Origin: Aeromicrobium sp.
Lineage (GTDB): Bacteria; Actinomycetota; Actinomycetes; Propionibacteriales; Nocardioidaceae
Assembly: GCA_014377785.1 (NCBI GenBank)
Contig: JACMOZ010000150.1
Location: forward strand, 1 to 47,702
DNA: 47,702 bases
Reading direction: 5' to 3'
A program made the translations under genes and the position numbers. Positions 30,088 to 42,323 of the stretch are shown here, piece after piece; the stretch's first letter is position 1, and every line of letters starts with the position of its first letter. The notes beneath the pieces were generated by a model that worked only from the letters and a program-made list of their open reading frames with translations, had not been told where the DNA came from and searched no databases.

Positions 30088-30570
30088 ATGGACACGACAG
30101 CACTTCGAAGCGCTTACGGAAGATTGCTCGATGTGGCGGCCATGCCCGACCTCGGCGACGCCGGCGACGGAGGATGGAACGCCGATCAAATATTGGCTCA
30201 TCTGATCAGCGTCGACGCCGCGATCGCGGCCGTCGCGCTTGGTGTCGTCTCGGGCTCGCGCCCCACCTTCGACAACCGGATTACTCTCGCCACCTGGAAT
30301 CTTGACCGGATCATCGCCGAGCACTCGGGAAGGGCAGAATTAATCGATCATGTCCGGAGCCAGGCCACCGTCCTTTGTGATATCGCCGATCAACTCAACG
30401 GCGAAGCAACCTCGGTTCCGGTGCCGTCGCTCATCTTGTCGAACGACGCGCTCGTCCTGGACCAGCCGATCCCGCTTGCCGCCCTCATCGATGGTCTCGC
30501 CGAGGACCACGTGCCAGTGCATGCCCAACAACTCCTCGACCTTCGAGTCCCCATCCTTGGGCACAGCTGA
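30088..30570 (+). CDS. DinB / maleylpyruvate-isomerase-like helical-bundle protein (tentative)
   Basis: This 160-residue soluble protein has a helical-bundle pattern: DTTALRSAYGRLLDVAAMPDL, then WNADQILAHLISVDAAIAAV (about 31-50). It resembles DinB-like or mycothiol-dependent maleylpyruvate isomerase N-terminal domains, where such a histidine helps bind a metal. The assignment is weak. The ATG at 30088 is preferred because AAAGGAAAG lies six bases upstream; an upstream in-frame ATG at 30049 lacks a site. It is transcribed after the ArsR gene and convergent with cld. Confidence 0.5.
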   Translation: MDTTALRSAYGRLLDVAAMPDLGDAGDGGWNADQILAHLISVDAAIAAVALGVVSGSRPTFDNRITLATWNLDRIIAEHSGRAELIDHVRSQATVLCDIADQLNGEATSVPVPSLILSNDALVLDQPIPLAALIDGLAEDHVPVHAQQLLDLRVPILGHS

Positions 30571-30606
30571 TCCTGGCCGTCGAAATGGCCTCCACTTCCC
30601 GGCCAC

Positions 30607-30633
30607 TTTCCCTGGCAGCCGCAGCCAGGGAAA
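30607..30633. terminator. Bidirectional terminator between the DinB-like gene and cld
   Basis: TTTCCCTGGC (30607-30616) and GCCAGGGAAA (30624-30633) form a perfect 10-bp stem with a 7-base loop, between two convergent genes. The A/T ends give a short U-run on both strands. Confidence 0.7.
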
Positions 30634-30721
30634 ATCCGCAGGCAGCATCGGACGCGACGAACGTGCTTGGCCTATCGGAAGTCGGCAAAGACTCCCAGAA
30701 GCAGAGCCGAGAGAAGGTGGG

Positions 30722-31261
30722 TCACCGCGCAAGGCGGATGTCGACCTCACGTTCCACGTAGCCCCACTCAGGGGTCGCGCGGAGTCGGTTCAAAAGCTCG
30801 TCAAACGCGGAGGCGTCCTCGGGCGCGTACTCGAACCAAGTGAGGAAGTCGAACGGCTCGCCCAGGTCACGACCGTGATACAGCTGGCGCGCGACTGCTG
30901 GCAGGTACTCCAACCCGATCGTGATGTGGTGGGAAGTCTCTTCAAGGAGTTCGCGACGTTCGTCCTGAGCGAGCAGCCACCACGAATCGGACTTGGTGAT
31001 GGGGATGAGAGCCGCGCGGGTTGCTTCCGGCCGGCCGAGTTGTGGCTGCCTGGCGTCGAGCGTCTCCTGCTCGTTGCGCTGCGTGTAGCGCTTGTAGCTC
31101 GTCATTCCGCGCAGCGTCCAGACCGGCGCAACGTCGCATACACATGGCCCGGTCAGCACTGCCAAACGTGAGACCATCGGCAAAGGCGGCCCGGTCACCG
31201 GCTCCATACTTTCGACCTGCCAAGCTCCCACCTGACCTCCGGCGAAAACGTTGAGTGGCAT
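30722..31261 (-). CDS. cld: Chlorite dismutase, short clade-2 type
   Basis: This 179-residue heme enzyme should convert chlorite to chloride and dioxygen. From memory it closely follows the short dimeric Cld of Nitrobacter winogradskyi, including EATRAALIPI, SHH, YLPA-ARQLYH and GEPFDFLTWFEYAPE. Key residues are kept: Lys90 and Trp94-Trp95 near the heme, proximal His112 (second of the HH pair) and distal Arg125, the residue that separates true chlorite dismutases from other family members. It has no signal peptide, so it should be cytoplasmic, like clade-2 enzymes. It sits about 3 kb upstream of a nitrate reductase operon, whose NarG can produce chlorite from chlorate. Nearby genes have different codon use from the dnaX-recR backbone. 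Confidence 0.85.
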   Translation of the reverse strand: MPLNVFAGGQVGAWQVESMEPVTGPPLPMVSRLAVLTGPCVCDVAPVWTLRGMTSYKRYTQRNEQETLDARQPQLGRPEATRAALIPITKSDSWWLLAQDERRELLEETSHHITIGLEYLPAVARQLYHGRDLGEPFDFLTWFEYAPEDASAFDELLNRLRATPEWGYVEREVDIRLAR

Positions 31262-31339
31262 GGACCCGACGTTACTACCTCATGTCTTCGATCGATCGCG
31301 GCACAAGCTGGGCGCCAAACCTGGGGCCAAATCAACGTG

Positions 31340-31666
31340 CTATTCCCAAATGGCCCGGAGGGCGGCGACATGGCCGTCGAAGGCGTTCCGGCCCATGGGT
31401 GTGAGGCGAACCCAGGCCATTCGGCGGAAGTCGGCGCGTTCCCGGCTGGCCGTCTTGTCCATGGTCACGTAACCGGCGTCGGTCAGGACCTTGAGGTGCT
31501 TGGACAGCGTGGCCGGTGTCAGGTCCAGGGTGTCGCGCAAGACGACGAAGGACAGTGCGTCGACCGCGCACAGCCGCCCGCAGATCCGCAGGCGCATCGG
31601 TGCGTGGACGATCTCGTCGAAGGCCACTTTGTTCCGGTCTGTCGCGGGGCTGCGGTCAGCGGCCAC
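31340..31666 (-). CDS. Winged-helix transcriptional regulator (HTH_34/MarR-like)
   Basis: This 108-residue DNA-binding protein has FDEIVHAPMRLRICGRL (about 15-31), a recognition helix region in LTPATLSKHLKVLTDAGYVTM (about 49-69) and a wing with RMAWVRLTPMGR. This is the one-domain winged-helix family often paired with a small membrane protein. The GTG at 31666 overlaps the end of the membrane-protein gene by 11 bases and gives the normal family length; the open frame extends to 31714 but only inside that gene. Two inverted repeats upstream of the operon are candidate operators. Confidence 0.75.
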   Translation of the reverse strand: MAADRSPATDRNKVAFDEIVHAPMRLRICGRLCAVDALSFVVLRDTLDLTPATLSKHLKVLTDAGYVTMDKTASRERADFRRMAWVRLTPMGRNAFDGHVAALRAIWE

Positions 31667-32096
31667 GGGTGACGCTCGCCAGGCTGTCGCGCTCGACGAG
31701 GCGTGTGGTTTCATACCCCGTTCCGGCCGCGGCGAGGGCGGGCAGGATGACCCACCAGCGCAGGTCGAGGGAGACTAGCCCAAGGCTCGTGCTGTAGAGC
31801 GCCAGGCCGATCGCGCTGGCCGCACCGACGATCCAGTAAGCACGGCCGCGGAGACAGCCGTGGCGTACACCTGCCGTGTGAACGGCGAGGTAGATCGCGA
31901 GCACGATGCCACCCACACTGATGAGGTAGGCGGAGGACGCGGCTTGGTCGCCGACGGCGGGTGAGGCGACCCACGCGGCGGTGAGGAAGGCGATGGTCGG
32001 GGCGAGCCAGATTGGCATGCGGACCCTCTCGCTCAGTCGGGCGCGGTCCTCCTCCAGAGCCTCGAGCATCCGGCGGGAGTTGGTGTCTCGTGTCAT
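31656..32096 (-). CDS. Small integral membrane protein paired with the regulator
   Basis: This 146-residue protein has a charged N terminus (RRMLEALEEDRARL) and four membrane helices between about residues 25 and 130. I do not recognise a defined family. Its overlap with a winged-helix regulator gene resembles the many regulator/membrane-protein pairs in actinobacteria. The ATG at 32096 is preferred over 32102 because TAGCGT lies seven bases upstream, suggesting a leaderless start. Its function is unknown. Confidence 0.6.
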   Translation of the reverse strand: MTRDTNSRRMLEALEEDRARLSERVRMPIWLAPTIAFLTAAWVASPAVGDQAASSAYLISVGGIVLAIYLAVHTAGVRHGCLRGRAYWIVGAASAIGLALYSTSLGLVSLDLRWWVILPALAAAGTGYETTRLVERDSLASVTRGR

Positions 32097-32116
32097 GTCC
32101 ATGACGCTAACGGATC

Positions 32117-32159
32117 AGTTGCCACTACGGCAAGAGTTTAAGTTGCCGAGTCTGCAACT
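32117..32159. promoter_or_regulatory. Two inverted repeats upstream of the regulator/membrane-protein operon
   Basis: TTGCC-N5-GGCAA (32119-32133) and AGTTGC-N7-GCAACT (32141-32159) lie next to each other, 20 to 60 bases upstream of the minus-strand operon. They share the TTGC core, so they look like two sites for one protein, plausibly the regulator itself. Confidence 0.45.
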
Positions 32160-32243
32160 GTTGCGCTGCCTCGCCGGGAAGACGTTCGACACGCTCGTCC
32201 AACCGGCGCCCGTATTGGTGGGACCTCATAGACTGAATCCCTT

Positions 32244-32840
32244 ATGTATGACGGTGTGATCCAAGACCTGATCGACGAACTGGGCCAGTTGCCCGGAATC
32301 GGCCCCAAGAGTGCGCAACGCATAGCGTTTTACCTGCTCGACGCCGACCCCGACGACGTACGCCGCTTCGCCGCGGTCCTCGTCGACGTCAAGGCCAAAG
32401 TCCATTTCTGCTCGATCTGCGGTAACGTTACCGAGTTGCCCGAGTGCCGCATCTGCACCGATCCTCGCCGTGACGACTCGGTGTTGTGCGTCGTCGAGGA
32501 GTCCAAAGATGTCGTCGCGATCGAACGCACCCGCGAATACCGCGGCCGCTATCACGTGCTCGGTGGAGCGATCTCGCCCATCGCCGGTATCGGCCCGGAT
32601 CAATTGCGGATCAAGCAACTTCTGCAGCGCCTCGCTGACAGCACGATCGAGGAAGTGATACTCGCCACCGACCCCAACCTCGAGGGTGAGGCGACGGCGA
32701 CCTACCTCATCCGGATGCTCACGCCGCTCGGCCTCCGCGTGACCAAACTCGCGAGCGGATTGCCCGTCGGCGGCGACCTGGAATATGCCGATGAACTCAC
32801 GCTGGGTCGGGCTTTCGAAGGTCGTCACGCTATCAGTTAG
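32244..32840 (+). CDS. recR: Recombination mediator protein RecR
   Basis: This 198-residue RecR helps load RecA at gaps and stalled forks with RecO/RecF. Features in order: the helix-hairpin-helix [20 protein letters not shown] (about 13-32), a zinc finger with [16 protein letters not shown] (about 56-71), a TOPRIM domain from about 80 with [12 protein letters not shown], and [13 protein letters not shown] (about 142-154). The length is typical. The ATG at 32244 lies nine bases after a TAGACT -10-like element, so the leader is very short. In many bacteria recR follows dnaX and ybaB; here accessory genes separate it from dnaX by 6 kb. Confidence 0.95.
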
Positions 32841-32984: not shown

Positions 32985-34232
32985 TCAGCGAACCTTGCTG
33001 GAACCTGAACGCACTGCGCGAGTGTTCACTATCAGGAGTACGAGCGCCGCGGCCTGGACCACCGCGATGATGATCGTCAGCGAGATGATCGAGCGAGAAT
33101 ACAGATAACCGGCCAGCGCGCCGCCGGCGATCGCTGCGCCGCCCTGGATCGCCGCGAAGACGCCGTAGGCGGTTGCCCGCTTGGGAGCCGGGACCAGGTC
33201 GGCGACGAGGGCCTTGACGGTGGAGTCCTGTACGCCGACCGCGGCACCCCACACACAGACGCCGGCGACGACCAGCGGGAGGCGAGAAGACAGGGCCAAC
33301 GGCGGGACCAGCGACACCAGGACGGGCAACGCGAAAAGGACCTTCCCGCCCCAAAGGTCAAAGAACCAGCCACTGGCGAGCGCAGCAACGGCGGCTACGG
33401 CCATGGCGAGCGCGTACAGGACGGGGACGCCGGCAACCGGGACGATCCTCTCCTCGGCAAGGTGGAAACCGATGAGCCCATACGTCACAAGTCCGGCTGT
33501 GGCAGCTCCGGCCGCCGTGGCGAAGATGAAGAAGGGTCGGGGCAAATCCATGCCGAAATTCCGGGCGATGGGACCCTGTTCGACGACAGTGTTGTCGGCA
33601 ACCGGGGGATCGGGCATTTTGCGTTTGATCCATAACAGCAAGGTGATTGACAGCGCTCCGGGGATCGCGAGGACGGCCATCGCCGGCCAGATCGCTGCGG
33701 AAACGGCCACGACCCCGGCCACGATCAGTGGCCCGGAGAAGGCGCCGATCTGATCGAGCGCCTTGTGTACGCCGAAGCCACGTCCCAGGCCAACCTGACC
33801 GGCAGCCTGGGCGAGAAGGGCTGACTTGGACGGGCTGCGCACGGCCTTGCCGGTGCGCTCGGCGAGGATCAGCACGCAGGCAACGGTGAGGCCGGCGGCG
33901 CCGATGAACGGGGTGATCGCGAGCAGCGGGACGCAGACGGCGGTGAGCGCATATCCGATGAGAGTGAGGCCCCAATAGTTGCCGGTGCGGTCCGCGAGGC
34001 TGCCGAAGAACAGCCGCAACACGAGGGCGATCGCCTCACCGGCTCCGGTCACGACGCCGACCAGGAGGGCCGAAGCCCCGAGCGAAGCGAGGAGCGGACC
34101 GGTGATCGACCGGGCGCCCTCATAGACGAGGTCGGCCGACAGGCTGACGACGCCGAATCCGAGGACAGTTCGCCACGGCGACCAAACGCCGGGGGCCGGT
34201 AATTGGCGGTCGTGCAGGCCATCAGCTGACAT
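32985..34232 (-). CDS. Major facilitator superfamily transporter
   Basis: This 415-residue MFS protein has about twelve membrane helices. The loop 2-3 motif GSLADRTGNYWG (about 77-88) and the loop 8-9 equivalent SGWFFDLWGGK mark the family. The start ATG at 34232 follows GGAAGG at seven bases. It is divergent from narG with about 100 bases between. Its substrate is unknown; it is not a NarK-type sequence, and the nitrate link rests only on position. It is convergent with recR. Confidence 0.75.
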   Translation of the reverse strand: MSADGLHDRQLPAPGVWSPWRTVLGFGVVSLSADLVYEGARSITGPLLASLGASALLVGVVTGAGEAIALVLRLFFGSLADRTGNYWGLTLIGYALTAVCVPLLAITPFIGAAGLTVACVLILAERTGKAVRSPSKSALLAQAAGQVGLGRGFGVHKALDQIGAFSGPLIVAGVVAVSAAIWPAMAVLAIPGALSITLLLWIKRKMPDPPVADNTVVEQGPIARNFGMDLPRPFFIFATAAGAATAGLVTYGLIGFHLAEERIVPVAGVPVLYALAMAVAAVAALASGWFFDLWGGKVLFALPVLVSLVPPLALSSRLPLVVAGVCVWGAAVGVQDSTVKALVADLVPAPKRATAYGVFAAIQGGAAIAGGALAGYLYSRSIISLTIIIAVVQAAALVLLIVNTRAVRSGSSKVR

Positions 34233-34334: not shown

Positions 34335-37300
34335 ATGGACGACGCGAAACGCGACATCGGCTTGGACGGCGCAGCCTCGGATACTTTGCTCAAGGTGGGT
34401 CGTTTCTTTACAAAATGGGACGGCTCCGACGACGGCCGTGCCGTCTTCCGCGAAGGCGGTCGCAAAGGCGATGTGTTCTATCGCGACCGGTGGAGTCACG
34501 ACAAAGTTGTTCGGTCAACTCACGGGGTCAATTGCACCGGCTCTTGTTCGTGGAAGGTCTACGTCAAGGACGGGATCATCACCTGGGAATCCCAGCAAAC
34601 CGACTACCCGTCGGTGGGCCCGGACAGCCCCGAATACGAGCCCCGCGGTTGCCCCCGCGGTGCAGCCTTCTCCTGGTACACGTATTCGCCGACGCGTGTC
34701 CGCTTCCCCTATGCGCGCGGCGTGCTCGTCGAGATGTACCGCGAAGCCAAGAATCGTCTGGGAGATCCAGTCCTCGCGTGGGCCGACATCCAGCGCGATC
34801 CCGTACGCCGCCGCCGCTATCAGAAGGCCCGCGGCAAGGGCGGACTCGTGCGAGTGTCCTGGAAGGAAGCGACCGAGATCGCCAGCGCCGCTCACGTTTA
34901 CACGATCAAGACCTATGGGCCCGACAGGTGCTCGGGGTTTTCGCCGATCCCGGCCATGTCAATGGTTTCGCACGCCGCCGGCAACCGCTTCATTCAGCTT
35001 ATCGGCGGCGTGATGACGTCGTTCTATGACTGGTATGCCGACCTTCCGGTGGCAAGCCCGCAAGTGTTCGGGGACCAAACCGATGTGCCCGAATCGGGCG
35101 ACTGGTGGGACTCGACGTACCTGATGATGTGGGGCTCGAATGTGCCGGTGACCCGCACGCCCGACGCCCACTGGATGGCCGAAGTCCGATATCGGGGCAC
35201 CAAGGTCGTCTCCGTCAGCCCGGACTACGCCGACAATACGAAATTCGCCGACGAGTGGCTGCCGGCGCAGGCCGGAACGGATGCGGCGCTGGCCATGGCG
35301 ATGGGGCACGTCATGCTTCGCGAGTTCTTCATCGAGCGGCAAGTGCCGTACTTCCAGGACTATGTCCGCACCTACACCGACCTTCCGTTCCTCATCCGGC
35401 TCAAGGCGCACAAGAGCGGCGGCTACGTTCCAGGCAAGTTCCTGATGGCCGCCGATCTGGCCGAACCGCACACGGGCGCCCCCGAAGACGCGTGGAAGAC
35501 CGTCGTTTTCGACGAGTCGACCGGTGATCCCTTCGTCCCTAATGGCTCCATGGGTTTCCGCTATGCGGAGTCGGGCGAGGGCAAATGGAACCTCGATCTC
35601 GAAGGAGTTCGGCCGGCCCTTTCGGTCTATGCCGACGACTGCGAGACGGTCGAGGTGAAACTGCCGCTGTTCGACCAGCCCGACGGTTCCGGCGAAATTC
35701 TGAGCCGCGGCGTGCCCGTGCGGCGCATCGGTGACGAGCTGGTCACGACGGTCTACGACCTCATGCTCGCCCAATACGGTGTGGGCCGCGAAGGATTGCC
35801 CGGAGACTGGGCGGCCGACTACGACGATGTGTCCTCGCCCTATACGCCCGCGTGGCAGGAAGAGATCACCAGCGTTCCGGCCAAGGCGTGCATCCGCATC
35901 GCCCGCGAATTTGCCCGCAACGCCGAGGAGTCCAATGGCCGGTCGATGATCATCATGGGCGCCGGCATTTGTCAGTGGTTCCATGGCGATGCGACGTATC
36001 GTGCGATCCTCTCGCTACTGATGCTCACCGGCTGTATGGGGAAAAACGGTGGCGGCTGGGCGCACTATGTCGGGCAGGAGAAGTGCCGCCCCATCACCGG
36101 CTGGATCTCACTGGCCAACGCGCTCGACTGGCAGCGGCCGCCACGCACCATGACCGGCACCACGTATTGGTACATGCACACCGATCAGTGGCGCAATGAC
36201 GGATATTCGGCCGACTCACTGTCCTCACCACTCGCCGAGGGCCACCTCGCCGGCATGCATACCGCGGACACGATCGCCCAGTCCGCGCGCAACGGCTGGA
36301 TGCCTTTCTTTCCGCAATTCGATGTGAATCCGCTCGATCTCGCCGATCAGGCGGAGGCCGCCGTCGCCGAGGGCCGTGCCACCGATGTGCCTGCCTATGT
36401 TGCCGAACGGCTCGTGGACGGTTCGCTCAAGCCGTCCATCGATGATGTCGACGCCCCCGAGAACTGGCCCCGAACTCTCGTTTTGTGGCGCTCGAATCTC
36501 ATGGGTTCCTCGGCCAAGGGCAACGAATACTTCCTCAAACATCTGCTCGGCACGCATTCCAACGTCATGGGCGACGACAGCCCGAGCCGCCCCAACGATG
36601 TGAAATGGCATGACGAGGCGCCGGAGGGCAAACTCGATTTGCTTGTCTCAGCCGATTTCCGGATGACATCGACGACACTGTTGTCCGACCTCGTCTTCCC
36701 CGCAGCGACTTGGTATGAAAAGCATGATTTGTCGTCGACCGACATGCACCCATTCGTGCACGCGTTCAGCCCCGCGATCGACCCGCCGTGGGAAGCCAAG
36801 ACCGACTTCGAAATGTTCCACCTGTTGGCCGAGGAGTTCTCCCGTCAGGCCAAGACTCATCTGGGTGTCCGCAAGGATCTGGTGAGCGTGCCCCTGCAGC
36901 ACGACACCGTGGGCCAGACCGCGCAGCCTGGCGGGCGTTCGATCGACTGGCGTCGCGACGGTATCGCGGTGCCGGGCAAAACGATGCCGATTTTCCAGAT
37001 CGTCGAACGCGACTTCACCACGATCGCCGACAAACTCGCTGCAGTGGGCCCGCTCGCTGACACCCTCGGGTTCACCGTCAAAAACGTCAAGTATGACGTC
37101 AAGCGCCAGAGCGAACGCCTCGCCAGGTCCAACGGCGTCATGCTTGGCGGCGCCGCCGACGGTCGCCCGGCCATCGACACCGACGCCAAGTTCGCCGAAG
37201 CGATCCTTGTCTATTCGGGCACGACCAATGGCGAACTCGCCGTTCAGGGATTCAAGACCCTGGAACGACGGGTGGGCAAAAAGCTCTCCGACCTTGCCGC

Positions 37301-38042
37301 AGGCTCGGAAGAAAGACGTATAAGTTTCGCCGACACCCAGAAGGGCCCACAGGCGGTCATCACGTCGCCGGAGTGGTCAGGCTCGGAAACCGGTGGCCGG
37401 CGTTACTCGCCGTTCACTATCAACATCGAGCGGCTCAAGCCGTTCCACACGCTGACCGGTCGTATGCACTTCTTCCTCGACCACGACTGGATGCAGGACC
37501 TCGGCGAGGCGTTGCCGATCTATCGTCCGCCACTGGACATGCACCGACTGTTCGGGGAACCCAAGCTTGGTGCCGACGGTTCAAAGCAGATCACGGTCCG
37601 CTATCTGACTCCCCATTCGAAATGGTCGATCCACTCGGAATATCAGGACAACCTGTTCATGCTCTCGCTTTCGCGCGGCGGTCCCACGGCTTGGATGAGC
37701 CCGGCCGACGCAGCCTCCATCGAGGTCAAGGACAACGACTGGATCGAGTGCACCAACCTCAATGGCGTACTCGTGTGTCGCGCCATTGTCAGCCACCGGA
37801 TGCCGGACGGCGTTGTCTACGTGCACCACGCGCAGGAACGCACCATCGACGTGCCGAAGTCCGAGGCGACAGGCCGACGCGGCGGCATCCATAACTCCCT
37901 GACCCGGCTTCTGGTGAAGCCTTCCCACCTCATCGGCGGTTACGCCCAATTGTCGTACGCGTTCAACTACCTCGGGCCCACCGGAAATCAACGCGACAAT
38001 GTGTCCACCATTCGACGACGTTCACAGGATGTGACTTACTGA
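34335..38042 (+). CDS. narG: Respiratory nitrate reductase alpha subunit
   Basis: This 1235-residue Mo-bisMGD catalytic subunit reduces nitrate to nitrite on the cytoplasmic face of the membrane; NarG-type enzymes also reduce chlorate. The FS0 cluster motif starts with THGVNCTGSCSW (about 60-71) and is followed by WESQQTDYP, which holds the Mo-ligand aspartate. The length agrees with E. coli NarG (about 1247). The ATG at 34335 is chosen over the open frame start at 34269 because it matches the family N terminus (GRFFTKWDG about 24) and follows a -10-like hexamer. It is the first gene of narGHJI-narK, overlapping narH by one base. Confidence 0.95.
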   Translation: MDDAKRDIGLDGAASDTLLKVGRFFTKWDGSDDGRAVFREGGRKGDVFYRDRWSHDKVVRSTHGVNCTGSCSWKVYVKDGIITWESQQTDYPSVGPDSPEYEPRGCPRGAAFSWYTYSPTRVRFPYARGVLVEMYREAKNRLGDPVLAWADIQRDPVRRRRYQKARGKGGLVRVSWKEATEIASAAHVYTIKTYGPDRCSGFSPIPAMSMVSHAAGNRFIQLIGGVMTSFYDWYADLPVASPQVFGDQTDVPESGDWWDSTYLMMWGSNVPVTRTPDAHWMAEVRYRGTKVVSVSPDYADNTKFADEWLPAQAGTDAALAMAMGHVMLREFFIERQVPYFQDYVRTYTDLPFLIRLKAHKSGGYVPGKFLMAADLAEPHTGAPEDAWKTVVFDESTGDPFVPNGSMGFRYAESGEGKWNLDLEGVRPALSVYADDCETVEVKLPLFDQPDGSGEILSRGVPVRRIGDELVTTVYDLMLAQYGVGREGLPGDWAADYDDVSSPYTPAWQEEITSVPAKACIRIAREFARNAEESNGRSMIIMGAGICQWFHGDATYRAILSLLMLTGCMGKNGGGWAHYVGQEKCRPITGWISLANALDWQRPPRTMTGTTYWYMHTDQWRNDGYSADSLSSPLAEGHLAGMHTADTIAQSARNGWMPFFPQFDVNPLDLADQAEAAVAEGRATDVPAYVAERLVDGSLKPSIDDVDAPENWPRTLVLWRSNLMGSSAKGNEYFLKHLLGTHSNVMGDDSPSRPNDVKWHDEAPEGKLDLLVSADFRMTSTTLLSDLVFPAATWYEKHDLSSTDMHPFVHAFSPAIDPPWEAKTDFEMFHLLAEEFSRQAKTHLGVRKDLVSVPLQHDTVGQTAQPGGRSIDWRRDGIAVPGKTMPIFQIVERDFTTIADKLAAVGPLADTLGFTVKNVKYDVKRQSERLARSNGVMLGGAADGRPAIDTDAKFAEAILVYSGTTNGELAVQGFKTLERRVGKKLSDLAAGSEERRISFADTQKGPQAVITSPEWSGSETGGRRYSPFTINIERLKPFHTLTGRMHFFLDHDWMQDLGEALPIYRPPLDMHRLFGEPKLGADGSKQITVRYLTPHSKWSIHSEYQDNLFMLSLSRGGPTAWMSPADAASIEVKDNDWIECTNLNGVLVCRAIVSHRMPDGVVYVHHAQERTIDVPKSEATGRRGGIHNSLTRLLVKPSHLIGGYAQLSYAFNYLGPTGNQRDNVSTIRRRSQDVTY

Positions 38043-39712
38043 TGAAGGTAATGGCGCAAATGGGCATGGTGATGAATCTCGACAAATGCATCGGGTGCCA
38101 CACCTGTTCGGTGACGTGCAAGCAGGCATGGACCAACCGGGCCGGCGTCGAATACGTCTGGTTCAACAACGTCGAGACGCGTCCCGGTCAGGGCTATCCG
38201 CGCCGGCACGAAGACCAGGAGAAGTGGAAGGGCGGCTGGGAACTCAACAAGAAGGGCCGGCTCGTCCTCAAGGCCGGCGGCCGGTTCAAGAAGCTGATGA
38301 CCATTTTCGCCAGCCCGGTGCAGCCCGAGCTCAAGGACTACTACGAGCCGTGGACCTACGACTACGAGACACTCGTCAATGCTCCGCTCGGGGATGACTT
38401 CCCCGTCGCCCGGCCCAAATCGCTCATCACCGGCAAGGACACGAAGATCACTTGGAGTGCCAACTGGGACGACAATCTCGGCGGCACGACCGAACTCGGC
38501 CATCTTGATCCCATCGTCGAAAAGGTGCGGCGCGAGTCCGAGGACAAGATCAAGTTCGAGTTCGAGCAGACGTTCATGTTCTATCTGCCCAGGATCTGCG
38601 AACACTGCCTCAACCCGTCGTGCGTCGCATCGTGCCCGTCGGGTGCGATCTACAAACGCGAAGAGGACGGCATCGTCCTCGTCGACCAAGACAGGTGTCG
38701 TGGTTGGCGTCAGTGCATCACCGGTTGCCCGTACAAAAAGATCTACTTCAACCACAAGTCGGGCAAAGCCGAGAAGTGCACTTTTTGCTACCCGAGGATC
38801 GAACAGGGCCTGCCAACGGTGTGTTCGGAGACCTGCGTCGGCCGGTTGCGCTACCTCGGGCTGTTCCTTTATGACGCCGACGGCGTGACCGAGGCCGCTT
38901 CGACTCTCGACGACAAGGATCTCTACGAAGCCCAGCTCGACCTTTTGCTCGACCCGAACGATCCTGCGGTCATCCGCGCCGCAAGGGAGCAGGGCATTGC
39001 CGACGACTGGATGGACGCGGCCAGGCGTTCGCCGGTCTACGCCTTGGCAAAGACGTATCGGGTTGCCTTGCCGCTTCATCCCGAATATCGCACGATGCCG
39101 ATGGTTTGGTATGTCCCGCCGCTGTCGCCGATCGTCGACTTGTTGTCCGAGCAGGGCCACGATGCTGAAGATCATGGCAACCTCTTCGGTGCGATCGACG
39201 CCTTGCGGATCCCGGTCGAATACCTCGCCGAAATGTTCACTGCCGGCGACACCGAGGTCATCAGCGATGTCTTGCGCAAACTCGCGGCCATGCGGGCCTA
39301 CATGCGTGGCATCACGCTGGGCCGCGAACCCGACGAGAGCATTCCCGCCTCGGTCGGCATGACCGAGGAGTCGATGTATGCGATGTACCGGCTGATGGCG
39401 ATCGCTAAATACGAAGATCGATACGTCATTCCCAAGGCTCACATGGAGCAGGCCCACGATCTCGAAGAGTTGGGATGTTCGCTGGACTTCGAGGATGGTC
39501 CGGGGATGTACGAATCGGGACCGTTCGGCGAGGCAAGCGGCAGGCCTGCCCCGGTCGCGGTCGAAACCTTCCAGGCCCTCAAACAGCGTCAAACCTCCGA
39601 TGTCCCGGCCTCCGAAGAAGCCCTGCGCGGTCGGGTCAATCTTCTCAATTGGGACGGCAACGGCGCGCCGCCGGGCATGTTCCCCGAACGCAGCCCGGAG
39701 GACGACTCATGA
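38042..39712 (+). CDS. narH: Respiratory nitrate reductase beta subunit
   Basis: This 556-residue iron-sulfur subunit passes electrons from NarI to NarG. Four cluster-binding cysteine groups are visible: CIGCHTCSVTC (about 16-26), CEHCLNPSCVASC (about 186-198), CRGWRQCITGCP (about 219-230, where Trp replaces one cysteine and gives the 3Fe-4S cluster) and CTFC with CSETC (about 247-270). The ATG at 38042 overlaps the narG stop (TGATG). The C-terminal region is typical of NarH. Confidence 0.95.
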   Translation: MKVMAQMGMVMNLDKCIGCHTCSVTCKQAWTNRAGVEYVWFNNVETRPGQGYPRRHEDQEKWKGGWELNKKGRLVLKAGGRFKKLMTIFASPVQPELKDYYEPWTYDYETLVNAPLGDDFPVARPKSLITGKDTKITWSANWDDNLGGTTELGHLDPIVEKVRRESEDKIKFEFEQTFMFYLPRICEHCLNPSCVASCPSGAIYKREEDGIVLVDQDRCRGWRQCITGCPYKKIYFNHKSGKAEKCTFCYPRIEQGLPTVCSETCVGRLRYLGLFLYDADGVTEAASTLDDKDLYEAQLDLLLDPNDPAVIRAAREQGIADDWMDAARRSPVYALAKTYRVALPLHPEYRTMPMVWYVPPLSPIVDLLSEQGHDAEDHGNLFGAIDALRIPVEYLAEMFTAGDTEVISDVLRKLAAMRAYMRGITLGREPDESIPASVGMTEESMYAMYRLMAIAKYEDRYVIPKAHMEQAHDLEELGCSLDFEDGPGMYESGPFGEASGRPAPVAVETFQALKQRQTSDVPASEEALRGRVNLLNWDGNGAPPGMFPERSPEDDS

Positions 39713-40338
39713 CGCACTCGACGCGCATCATTCACCAGGTCTCATCATGGTGTCTTTCCTATCCCGACGACGATTTCTGTGACCGTTTGCCTCTGTTGGC
39801 GGCGGCCGTGGAGGAGTTGAAGGCCGGCAAGGCGCGCAGTTGCCTCAAGCGCTTCCTCGATCACGTTGCCGGTCAGGACCTCGAGGTCTTGCGGACGACA
39901 TACGTCGACGTGTTCGACATGAGCCGCAAGCATGCACTGCATCTGTCGTACTGGACCGACGGAGACACCCGGCGACGCGGTGAGGTGCTCGGTGATTTCA
40001 AGAAGCATTTCCGCGGCAGCGGTTTCCTGGTCGATACGGGCGGGGAACTCCCCGACTTCCTGCCGATGGTGCTCGAGTACGCTGCGGTGGCCGATCCCCA
40101 GGACGGCCCCGAACTGTTGCAGAGTTATCGCGCCAGCATCGAATTGTTGCGGATCGCGCTGACCGAGATCGACAGTCCCTACGCGCAAGTGCTCGACGCG
40201 ATCTGTTCGACGCTCCCGGGTGCCTCCCCTGCGGATCGAAACGCCGTCATGAGGATGGTGGGGGCCGGGCCACCGACCGAAACGGTGGGTCTTGAACCCT
40301 ATGATCCGCGTTTGCTTCCATTGCAGGCAACGCGATGA
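39709..40338 (+). CDS. narJ: Nitrate reductase molybdenum cofactor assembly chaperone
   Basis: This 209-residue NarJ/NarW-type chaperone keeps NarG competent for molybdenum cofactor insertion and is not part of the final complex. Its opening HQVSSWCLSYPDDDF (about 8-22) and DVFDMSRKHALHLSYWTDGDTRRRG (about 66-90) are family hallmarks. The ATG at 39709 overlaps the narH stop as ATGA, so the longer open frame from 39475 is not used. It is somewhat shorter than the E. coli protein. Confidence 0.9.
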   Translation: MTHSTRIIHQVSSWCLSYPDDDFCDRLPLLAAAVEELKAGKARSCLKRFLDHVAGQDLEVLRTTYVDVFDMSRKHALHLSYWTDGDTRRRGEVLGDFKKHFRGSGFLVDTGGELPDFLPMVLEYAAVADPQDGPELLQSYRASIELLRIALTEIDSPYAQVLDAICSTLPGASPADRNAVMRMVGAGPPTETVGLEPYDPRLLPLQATR

Positions 40339-40354
40339 TGAATCGAGTGATTTG

Positions 40355-41101
40355 ATGGATGATCTTCTTTGGGGAGTCCTTCCCTACGTCATGGTTGTCG
40401 TCCTCGTCGGCGGAACCATCTGGCGCTATCGCTATGACCAGTTCGGCTGGACGACCCGATCCACGCAACTGTATGAATCGCGACTTTTGCGCATCGGTTC
40501 GCCGCTGTTTCATTTCGGCCTGGTCTTTGTCATCGCGGGCCATTTCTTCGGCCTGGTGATCCCGAAGTCGTGGACGGATGCTGCCGGTTTGTCGCAGCAT
40601 GTCTATCACCTGAACGCCCTCATCGTCGGGGGACTGGCCGGCTTCTGCACGCTGGTCGGGCTGATGATTCTCGTCTATCGCCGACGCACCATGGGTTCGG
40701 TCTTCATGGCGACGACCAAAAACGACAAGATGATGTACATCGTGCTGGTCGGCGCCATCGCCCTTGGTTTGTGGACGACGGTTGCCGGTGTCTGGGGCGA
40801 TGAGGAGGCGAACAACTATCGTGAATCGGTGGCGCCGTGGTTCCGGTCGTTGTTCATTTTCCAGCCCGATATCGCGTCCATGGCGGCAGCACCGTTTTCA
40901 TTCCATTTCCACACCCTCGTAGGAATGTTTCTGTTCATGATCTGGCCGTTCACCCGCTTGGTGCATGCCTTCACCGCACCGTTCCACTATCTGTTCAGGC
41001 CCTACATCGTCTATCGCAGCCGTGACAGCATCGGTTCGAGCGGGGCCCGTCAAGCCACACGGGGCTGGTCTTCGGTCGGCACCCACGACCGTGAAAAATA
41101 G
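40355..41101 (+). CDS. narI: Respiratory nitrate reductase gamma subunit (cytochrome b)
   Basis: This 248-residue membrane diheme cytochrome b takes electrons from the menaquinol pool. About five helices are visible. Heme-ligand histidines lie in SPLFHFGLVFVIAGHFFG (about 50-67) and FHFHTLVGMFLFMIWPFTRLVHAF (about 183-206). The ATG at 40355 gives the family start (MDDLLWGVLPYVMVV), 16 bases after narJ; the open frame to 40292 lies inside narJ. Confidence 0.92.
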   Translation: MDDLLWGVLPYVMVVVLVGGTIWRYRYDQFGWTTRSTQLYESRLLRIGSPLFHFGLVFVIAGHFFGLVIPKSWTDAAGLSQHVYHLNALIVGGLAGFCTLVGLMILVYRRRTMGSVFMATTKNDKMMYIVLVGAIALGLWTTVAGVWGDEEANNYRESVAPWFRSLFIFQPDIASMAAAPFSFHFHTLVGMFLFMIWPFTRLVHAFTAPFHYLFRPYIVYRSRDSIGSSGARQATRGWSSVGTHDREK

Positions 41102-41111
41102 GGAAAGTAGA

Positions 41112-42323
41112 TTGACGGCTGTGTCGAATACACCTACCGGCCAAGTCCGGAATCTCGCCCTTGCAACGTGGGCTTTTGCCATCAGCTTTTGGGCCTGGAA
41201 CCTCATTGCCCCACTTGGCGCCCGCTACACCACCGATCTGGGGTTGACGCCGGGGCAGAAGGCTTTGCTGGTCGCCATACCGGTGCTCGTTGGCGCTGCC
41301 GGCCGCATTGTGGTCGGCATCATGACCGACTTCTACGGCGGTCGCATCATGTTCCCGGTGCTGCTCTTGCTGTCGGTGCCCTTCGTCTTGCTTCTCGCGG
41401 TGGCGGGCAACCGGAATTCTTACTCGATGCTGCTTGTCGTCGGTTTCTTTCTCGGCATCGCCGGCACGACGTTCGCGGTAGGGATCCCGTTCGTCAACAG
41501 TTGGTATGAGCCTGAACGGCGCGGTTTCGCCACCGGCGTTTTCGGTGTCGGTATGGGCGGTACGGCGTTGTCGGCCTTCCTCACCCCGCGCTTCGTCGCC
41601 TGGTTCGGCTATACGACAACGCATGTCATCCTTGCGGTCGCGCTGGCGTTGTCGGCGGTGCTGGTGTGGAAGTTCATGAGCAATGCGCCGGGGTGGTCGC
41701 CCAACCGCGAACCTGCCCTCCCGAAACTCATAGGCGCGCTGAAATTGCCGGTGACCTGGCAAATGTCATTTTTGTACGCGGTGGCCTTCGGTGGATTCGT
41801 CGCATTTTCGACCTACTTGCCGACTTATCTCAAAGACGTCTATGAGTTTGGTTTGACCGGCGCGGGGACCAGGGCGGCGGGCTTCGCGGTCGCCGCCGTG
41901 ATCGCCAGACCAATCGGCGGCATCTTGTCGGACAAAATCGGTGCGAAACCGGTCGTGGCCGCCTCGTTTGCCGGAGTTGCAGTCCTCGCGGCCCTGGTCG
42001 CGAGGCAACCACAGCAGGAACTGTGGGCCGGTGGACAGTTCGTCGCGCTCGCGGTCTTCCTCGGTCTCGGCATGGGCGGCGTCTTTGCCTGGCTGAGCCG
42101 CAAGACCCCTCAGCAGCGCGCGGGGGCCGTCGCAGGCATCGTCGGCGCTGCCGGTGGTTTGGGCGGATTCTTCCCGCCGTTAGTGATGGGCGCGACGTAC
42201 GACGAGGCCAACCGCGACTACTCCTCGGGTCTGCTGCTGCTGTGCGGTGTCGCCACCATCGCGCTCGTCTTCACGGTGTTTGGCATTCGCAGTGCATTAA
42301 AGCCAGCTACCGCCTCCCACTAG
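41112..42323 (+). CDS. narK: Nitrate/nitrite transporter, MFS (NarK family)
   Basis: This 403-residue nitrate/nitrite transporter has about twelve helices. Nitrate-signature blocks are present: GFFLGIAGTTFAVGIPFVNSWY (about 113-134) and FLGLGMGGVFAWLSRKTP (about 319-336), with the conserved Arg in ALLVAIPVLVGAAGRIVVG (about 54-72). The TTG at 41112 follows GGGAAAG at a good distance, ten bases after narI; GTG at 41121 is an alternative. It probably brings in nitrate and/or exports nitrite for the NarGHI complex. Confidence 0.9.
   Translation: MTAVSNTPTGQVRNLALATWAFAISFWAWNLIAPLGARYTTDLGLTPGQKALLVAIPVLVGAAGRIVVGIMTDFYGGRIMFPVLLLLSVPFVLLLAVAGNRNSYSMLLVVGFFLGIAGTTFAVGIPFVNSWYEPERRGFATGVFGVGMGGTALSAFLTPRFVAWFGYTTTHVILAVALALSAVLVWKFMSNAPGWSPNREPALPKLIGALKLPVTWQMSFLYAVAFGGFVAFSTYLPTYLKDVYEFGLTGAGTRAAGFAVAAVIARPIGGILSDKIGAKPVVAASFAGVAVLAALVARQPQQELWAGGQFVALAVFLGLGMGGVFAWLSRKTPQQRAGAVAGIVGAAGGLGGFFPPLVMGATYDEANRDYSSGLLLLCGVATIALVFTVFGIRSALKPATASH

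Follow-up and report, generated by a model that had tools for sequence, protein, structure and literature searches.

A short-form clade 2 chlorite dismutase gene near narGHJI in an Aeromicrobium genome, probably acquired as a single mobile gene

The window, meaning the whole stretch of DNA that was analyzed (47,702 nucleotides of Aeromicrobium sp., family Nocardioidaceae; contig JACMOZ010000150.1 of assembly GCA_014377785.1), carries a gene for a chlorite dismutase (Cld) and, a short distance away, genes for a respiratory-type nitrate reductase. The features are given below from left to right; the names dnaX, pabB, lysC and asd were read off the translated sequences.

Left of cld: dnaX, a pabB-type gene, an AHSA1 protein, an ArsR regulator and one further ORF
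30722..31261, minus strand: cld, clade 2 chlorite dismutase, 179 aa (Pfam PF06778, PDB matches, residues, tree)
31340..31714, minus strand: HTH_34/ArsR-like winged-helix regulator (Pfam HTH_34, 2.8e-17)
31656..32102, minus strand: small membrane-like protein overlapping the regulator ORF (ORF only, without a Pfam family)
32244..32840, plus strand: recR, a conserved chromosomal marker (TIGR00615, 272 bits)
32985..34232, minus strand: MFS transporter between recR and narG, without a specific subfamily (MFS_1)
34335..38042, plus strand: narG, start codon approximate (TIGR01580, 1580 bits; cut-off 1084)
38042..39712, plus strand: narH (TIGR01660, 755 bits)
39709..40338, plus strand: narJ, start approximate (Nitrate_red_del, 1.9e-9)
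40355..41101, plus strand: narI, start approximate (TIGR00351, 196 bits)
41121..42323, plus strand: narK-type MFS transporter, start approximate (TIGR00886, 199 bits, below the cut-off of 311.7)
Right of the narK-type transporter: lysC and asd

The cld ORF on the minus strand is intact and begins with ATG. The HTH_34 regulator lies upstream on the same strand, 78 bp away, and the two genes may or may not be co-transcribed. A scan of positions 30500-32300 found no promoter or terminator, a result of little weight for a high-GC actinobacterium, and no terminator-like site was found between the regulator and cld, where the same caveat applies. The HTH_34 regulator, which together with the small membrane-like protein occupies 31340-32102 on the minus strand, is a possible regulator of cld. 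Profile matches confirmed that the narGHJI-narK locus is complete, as the original prediction had stated. That prediction had also placed nar 3 kb downstream of cld. The distance is right, as some 3.1 kb separate the start codon of cld from the beginning of nar, but "downstream" is not. Transcription runs to the left for cld and to the right for nar, so that nar is found 5' of cld and the two are divergent. They share no operon, being on opposite strands with the HTH_34 regulator, the membrane-like protein, recR and the MFS gene in between.

The 179-aa protein matched Pfam Chlor_dismutase (PF06778) at 2.4e-10. When the PDB was searched with phmmer, the best matches were all short Cld structures (3QPI, 2.1e-63; 9GTJ, 2.6e-63; 5K8Z, 3.3e-58), which scored 196-216 bits against about 42 or less for the clade 1 structures. 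The protein is approximately 57% identical to the crystallized Nitrobacter enzyme (3QPI) and 55% identical to Cyanothece CCld. In the alignment, K90, W94, W95, H112 and R125 correspond to K92, W96, W97, H114 and R127 of CCld. E165 corresponds to E167 and Q72 to Q74, the clade 2 loop glutamine that hydrogen-bonds the catalytic arginine (PMC7931450). Cld has been defined by four key residues, K92, H114, R127 and E167 in N. winogradskyi numbering (Barnum and Coates, 2022, PMC9751292), and the presence of K90, H112, R125 and E165 places the window protein within this definition. By these sequence features the protein is a genuine short-form clade 2 Cld, one more unremarkable member of a known family. 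The original prediction was therefore correct in reading it as a true clade 2 enzyme rather than a generic family member, a reading backed by the residues, the PDB matches and the tree, and the residues that it named (K90, W94-95, H112, R125) all sit at exactly the positions quoted. By homology, the protein is predicted to convert chlorite to chloride and O2 and to be a dimer, and its physiological role is likewise suggested by its relatives; protection from chlorite would be a sensible one.

A non-Cld identity, as HemQ (coproheme decarboxylase) or another member of the family, has in its favor that PF06778 is common to both groups and that the protein weakly matches the HemQ_actino model (NF042928). 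That match scored 14.8 bits, however, against an equivalog cut-off of 235. Ten actinobacterial HemQ proteins carry R, H, A and A where the window protein carries K90, H112, R125 and E165, so that its catalytic arginine is replaced by alanine in all ten. A phylogeny had been proposed as a check on the original prediction. Two trees, of 48 and 51 proteins without clade 1 Cld, split Cld from HemQ with 100/100 support and put the window protein on the Cld side; support for branching within Cld was mostly weak in both trees. A clear HemQ (358.9 bits; cut-off 235) is encoded on a different contig of the host genome, so Cld is no stand-in for heme synthesis. The score, the residues, the tree and the separate HemQ together rule out a HemQ/ChdC identity, and any non-Cld reading of the protein is extremely improbable. 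It could also be supposed that the contig comes from a contaminating organism in the bin, given an estimated contamination of 7.25% and a fragmented assembly of 519 contigs. Against this, lysC on the contig is 85% identical to that of a genome of the same family and less so to those of other families, the recR-nar order is common to family members, and GC and GC3 are even. Contamination is thus very unlikely to explain the locus.

The relation of cld to nar was compared across other carriers of cld. NarG-type matches turned up in six of the 22 cld-bearing genomes tested, those of three Cryobacterium, of Mycolicibacterium tusciae and of two Nitrobacter. The Nitrobacter matches are presumably nitrite oxidoreductase, as would be expected. 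Among 17 other actinobacterial carriers outside Cryobacterium, narG was found only in M. tusciae, on another contig. In Cryobacterium breve (L008:8583-17533) and C. algoricola (L024), a narK-like gene, cld and a convergent narI-narJ-narH-narG follow one another within 10 kb, and cld and narI stand tail to tail with their ends approximately 10 bases apart. The third Cryobacterium carries cld without an adjoining nar gene and has narG on a different contig. Because cld abuts nar in C. breve and C. algoricola, a functional pairing may be real in Cryobacterium and, given these two loci, may exist within the phylum Actinobacteria. These two species have the tightest cld-nar arrangement seen and would be better subjects than the window for studying a Nar-Cld pair.

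Within Nocardioidaceae the association is not repeated. Among 341 family genomes, cld was found in two and narG in 145, and only the window genome had both. The family's other cld carrier (G110) has no narG match, and neither does the Marmoricola endophyticus record that carries cld. Two relatives from another genus (G008 and G030) have the recR-narG-narH-narJ-narI-narK order of the window, with NarG 81% identical, and cld is absent from both genomes; the position of nar at recR is therefore independent of cld. Among relatives, pabB and recR lie anywhere from about 0.4 to 10 kb apart, and this interval is a variable spot where genes come and go. A nar-linked cld is ruled out as a family trait by the counts of the two genes. 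The original prediction had treated the position of cld beside nar as a meaningful pairing, a view that the lack of family-wide co-occurrence and the two recR-nar loci without cld speak against. The closeness of cld and nar in the window looks mostly accidental, and a functional link between them in this genome is weakly supported.

The main competing explanation is that cld is kept as a safety valve for the adjoining Nar: while the cell respires nitrate, NarG would reduce chlorate to chlorite in the cytoplasm, Cld would remove it, and the closeness of the genes would be retained for that purpose. The complete nar locus 3 kb away is consistent with this, as are the two Cryobacterium arrangements and the discussion of cytoplasmic Cld with cytoplasmic NarG in PMC9751292. 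Yet the genes lie on opposite strands with recR and an MFS gene between cld and nar, 144 of the 145 family genomes with narG lack cld while the other cld carrier lacks narG, relatives have nar at recR without it, and the single M. tusciae case is all that the actinobacterial carriers outside Cryobacterium provide. This explanation is considered unlikely. A wider form, in which a mobile cld has been placed beside narGHJI repeatedly (in Cryobacterium and, independently, in the window lineage) and selected there since Nar makes cytoplasmic chlorite from natural chlorate, is regarded as a doubtful conjecture, somewhat less credible still.

Several observations bear on the mobility of cld. The nearest Cld found (WP_193591234.1, 81% identical) is encoded on plasmid pYJND-1 of Paenarthrobacter sp. 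YJN-D, where the gene directly follows an IS3 transposase gene at a distance of 58 bp (L157:4136-8540). No neighboring genes are shared among the closest chromosomal copies or between them and the window, and no conserved cld gene cluster was found for these copies. The plasmid copy beside IS3 and the lack of common neighbors suggest that cld travels alone, and the window cld probably arrived by horizontal transfer as a lone mobile gene. Its GC content (63.5%) and GC3 (75.6%) both match those of neighboring genes, so composition gives no sign of recent arrival, and no transposase or integrase was seen among its translated neighbors in the window. In PLSDB, 529 plasmids carry a relative. Most are from Klebsiella, and for the copies on Klebsiella plasmids identity to the window protein is mostly near 59%. 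Separately, the Cld proteins of Pseudonocardia nigra (L001:5009-5551) and Geodermatophilus chilensis (L002:1852-2394) are 98% identical; their genes lie on short contigs without shared flanks, which may reflect either recent transfer or contamination.

The reading favored here, and held with good though not full confidence, is that of a horizontally acquired single-gene clade 2 Cld that acts as a stand-alone detoxifier and whose closeness to nar is mostly incidental. According to this model, cld would have been gained alone and would have settled in the variable pabB-recR spot; with the nar operon located at recR in part of the family, closeness would be mostly a by-product. The dimer-type enzyme would hold ferric heme b through His112 and, with Arg125 as the catalytic residue, split chlorite to chloride and O2 in the cytoplasm. 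The chlorite could come from any source, whether chlorate reduced by Nar or another molybdoenzyme, or chlorite from outside the cell. Molybdopterin oxidoreductases resembling NasA/Fdh/NapA are encoded elsewhere in the window genome (L086:168-2789, contig C78; L089:1246-2343, contig C284) and are possible alternative chlorate reducers.

Cld has been reported in Actinobacteria, with extensive horizontal transfer (Barnum and Coates, 2022, PMC9751292). The same work noted the co-location of cytoplasmic Cld with cytoplasmic NarG, citing its reference 60, a Cryobacterium paper; from this citation we infer that the case is the C. breve and C. algoricola arrangement. The original prediction had held an actinobacterial Cld beside nar to be notable, such enzymes being documented mainly in nitrite oxidizers, cyanobacteria and perchlorate reducers. 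Since both the actinobacterial Cld and the Cld-NarG neighborhood are in PMC9751292, this claim of novelty fails. If cld protects nitrate-respiring actinobacteria, then co-reduction of chlorate would genuinely exert selection where these bacteria live. Chlorate co-reduction has already been proposed in general form as an explanation for Cld (PMC9751292), and the window locus adds one more carrier. The family-wide counts are a caution against taking closeness to nar alone as function.

How does the window locus compare with known systems? The Cld of Klebsiella pneumoniae MGH 78578, a dimeric enzyme, is called a chlorite antioxidant in the title of its report (Celis et al., PMC4303309; cited in PMC9751292 and PMC4973843). 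Going by the title, it is also a clade 2 Cld from a host not known for perchlorate respiration, although its enterobacterial host is unlike that of the window. The pYJND-1 copy differs in residing on a mobilizable plasmid, with the IS3 transposase and a P-type ATPase as neighbors; nar genes are absent from the part of it that was read. The metal P-type ATPase near this copy is accompanied by an ArsR regulator. The Cryobacterium loci share with the window an actinobacterial clade 2 Cld less than 10 kb from narGHJI and a narK-like gene. There, however, cld comes after the narK-like gene and meets narI tail to tail, whereas in the window cld and nar are divergent and separated by recR and the MFS gene. 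The closest likeness is to the Nitrobacter winogradskyi-type Cld (3QPI) and Cyanothece CCld (5K8Z/5MAU). The window protein resembles these in length, in identity (55-57%) and in every active-site residue, the Q74 equivalent among them, and differs from them in host phylum and gene context only.
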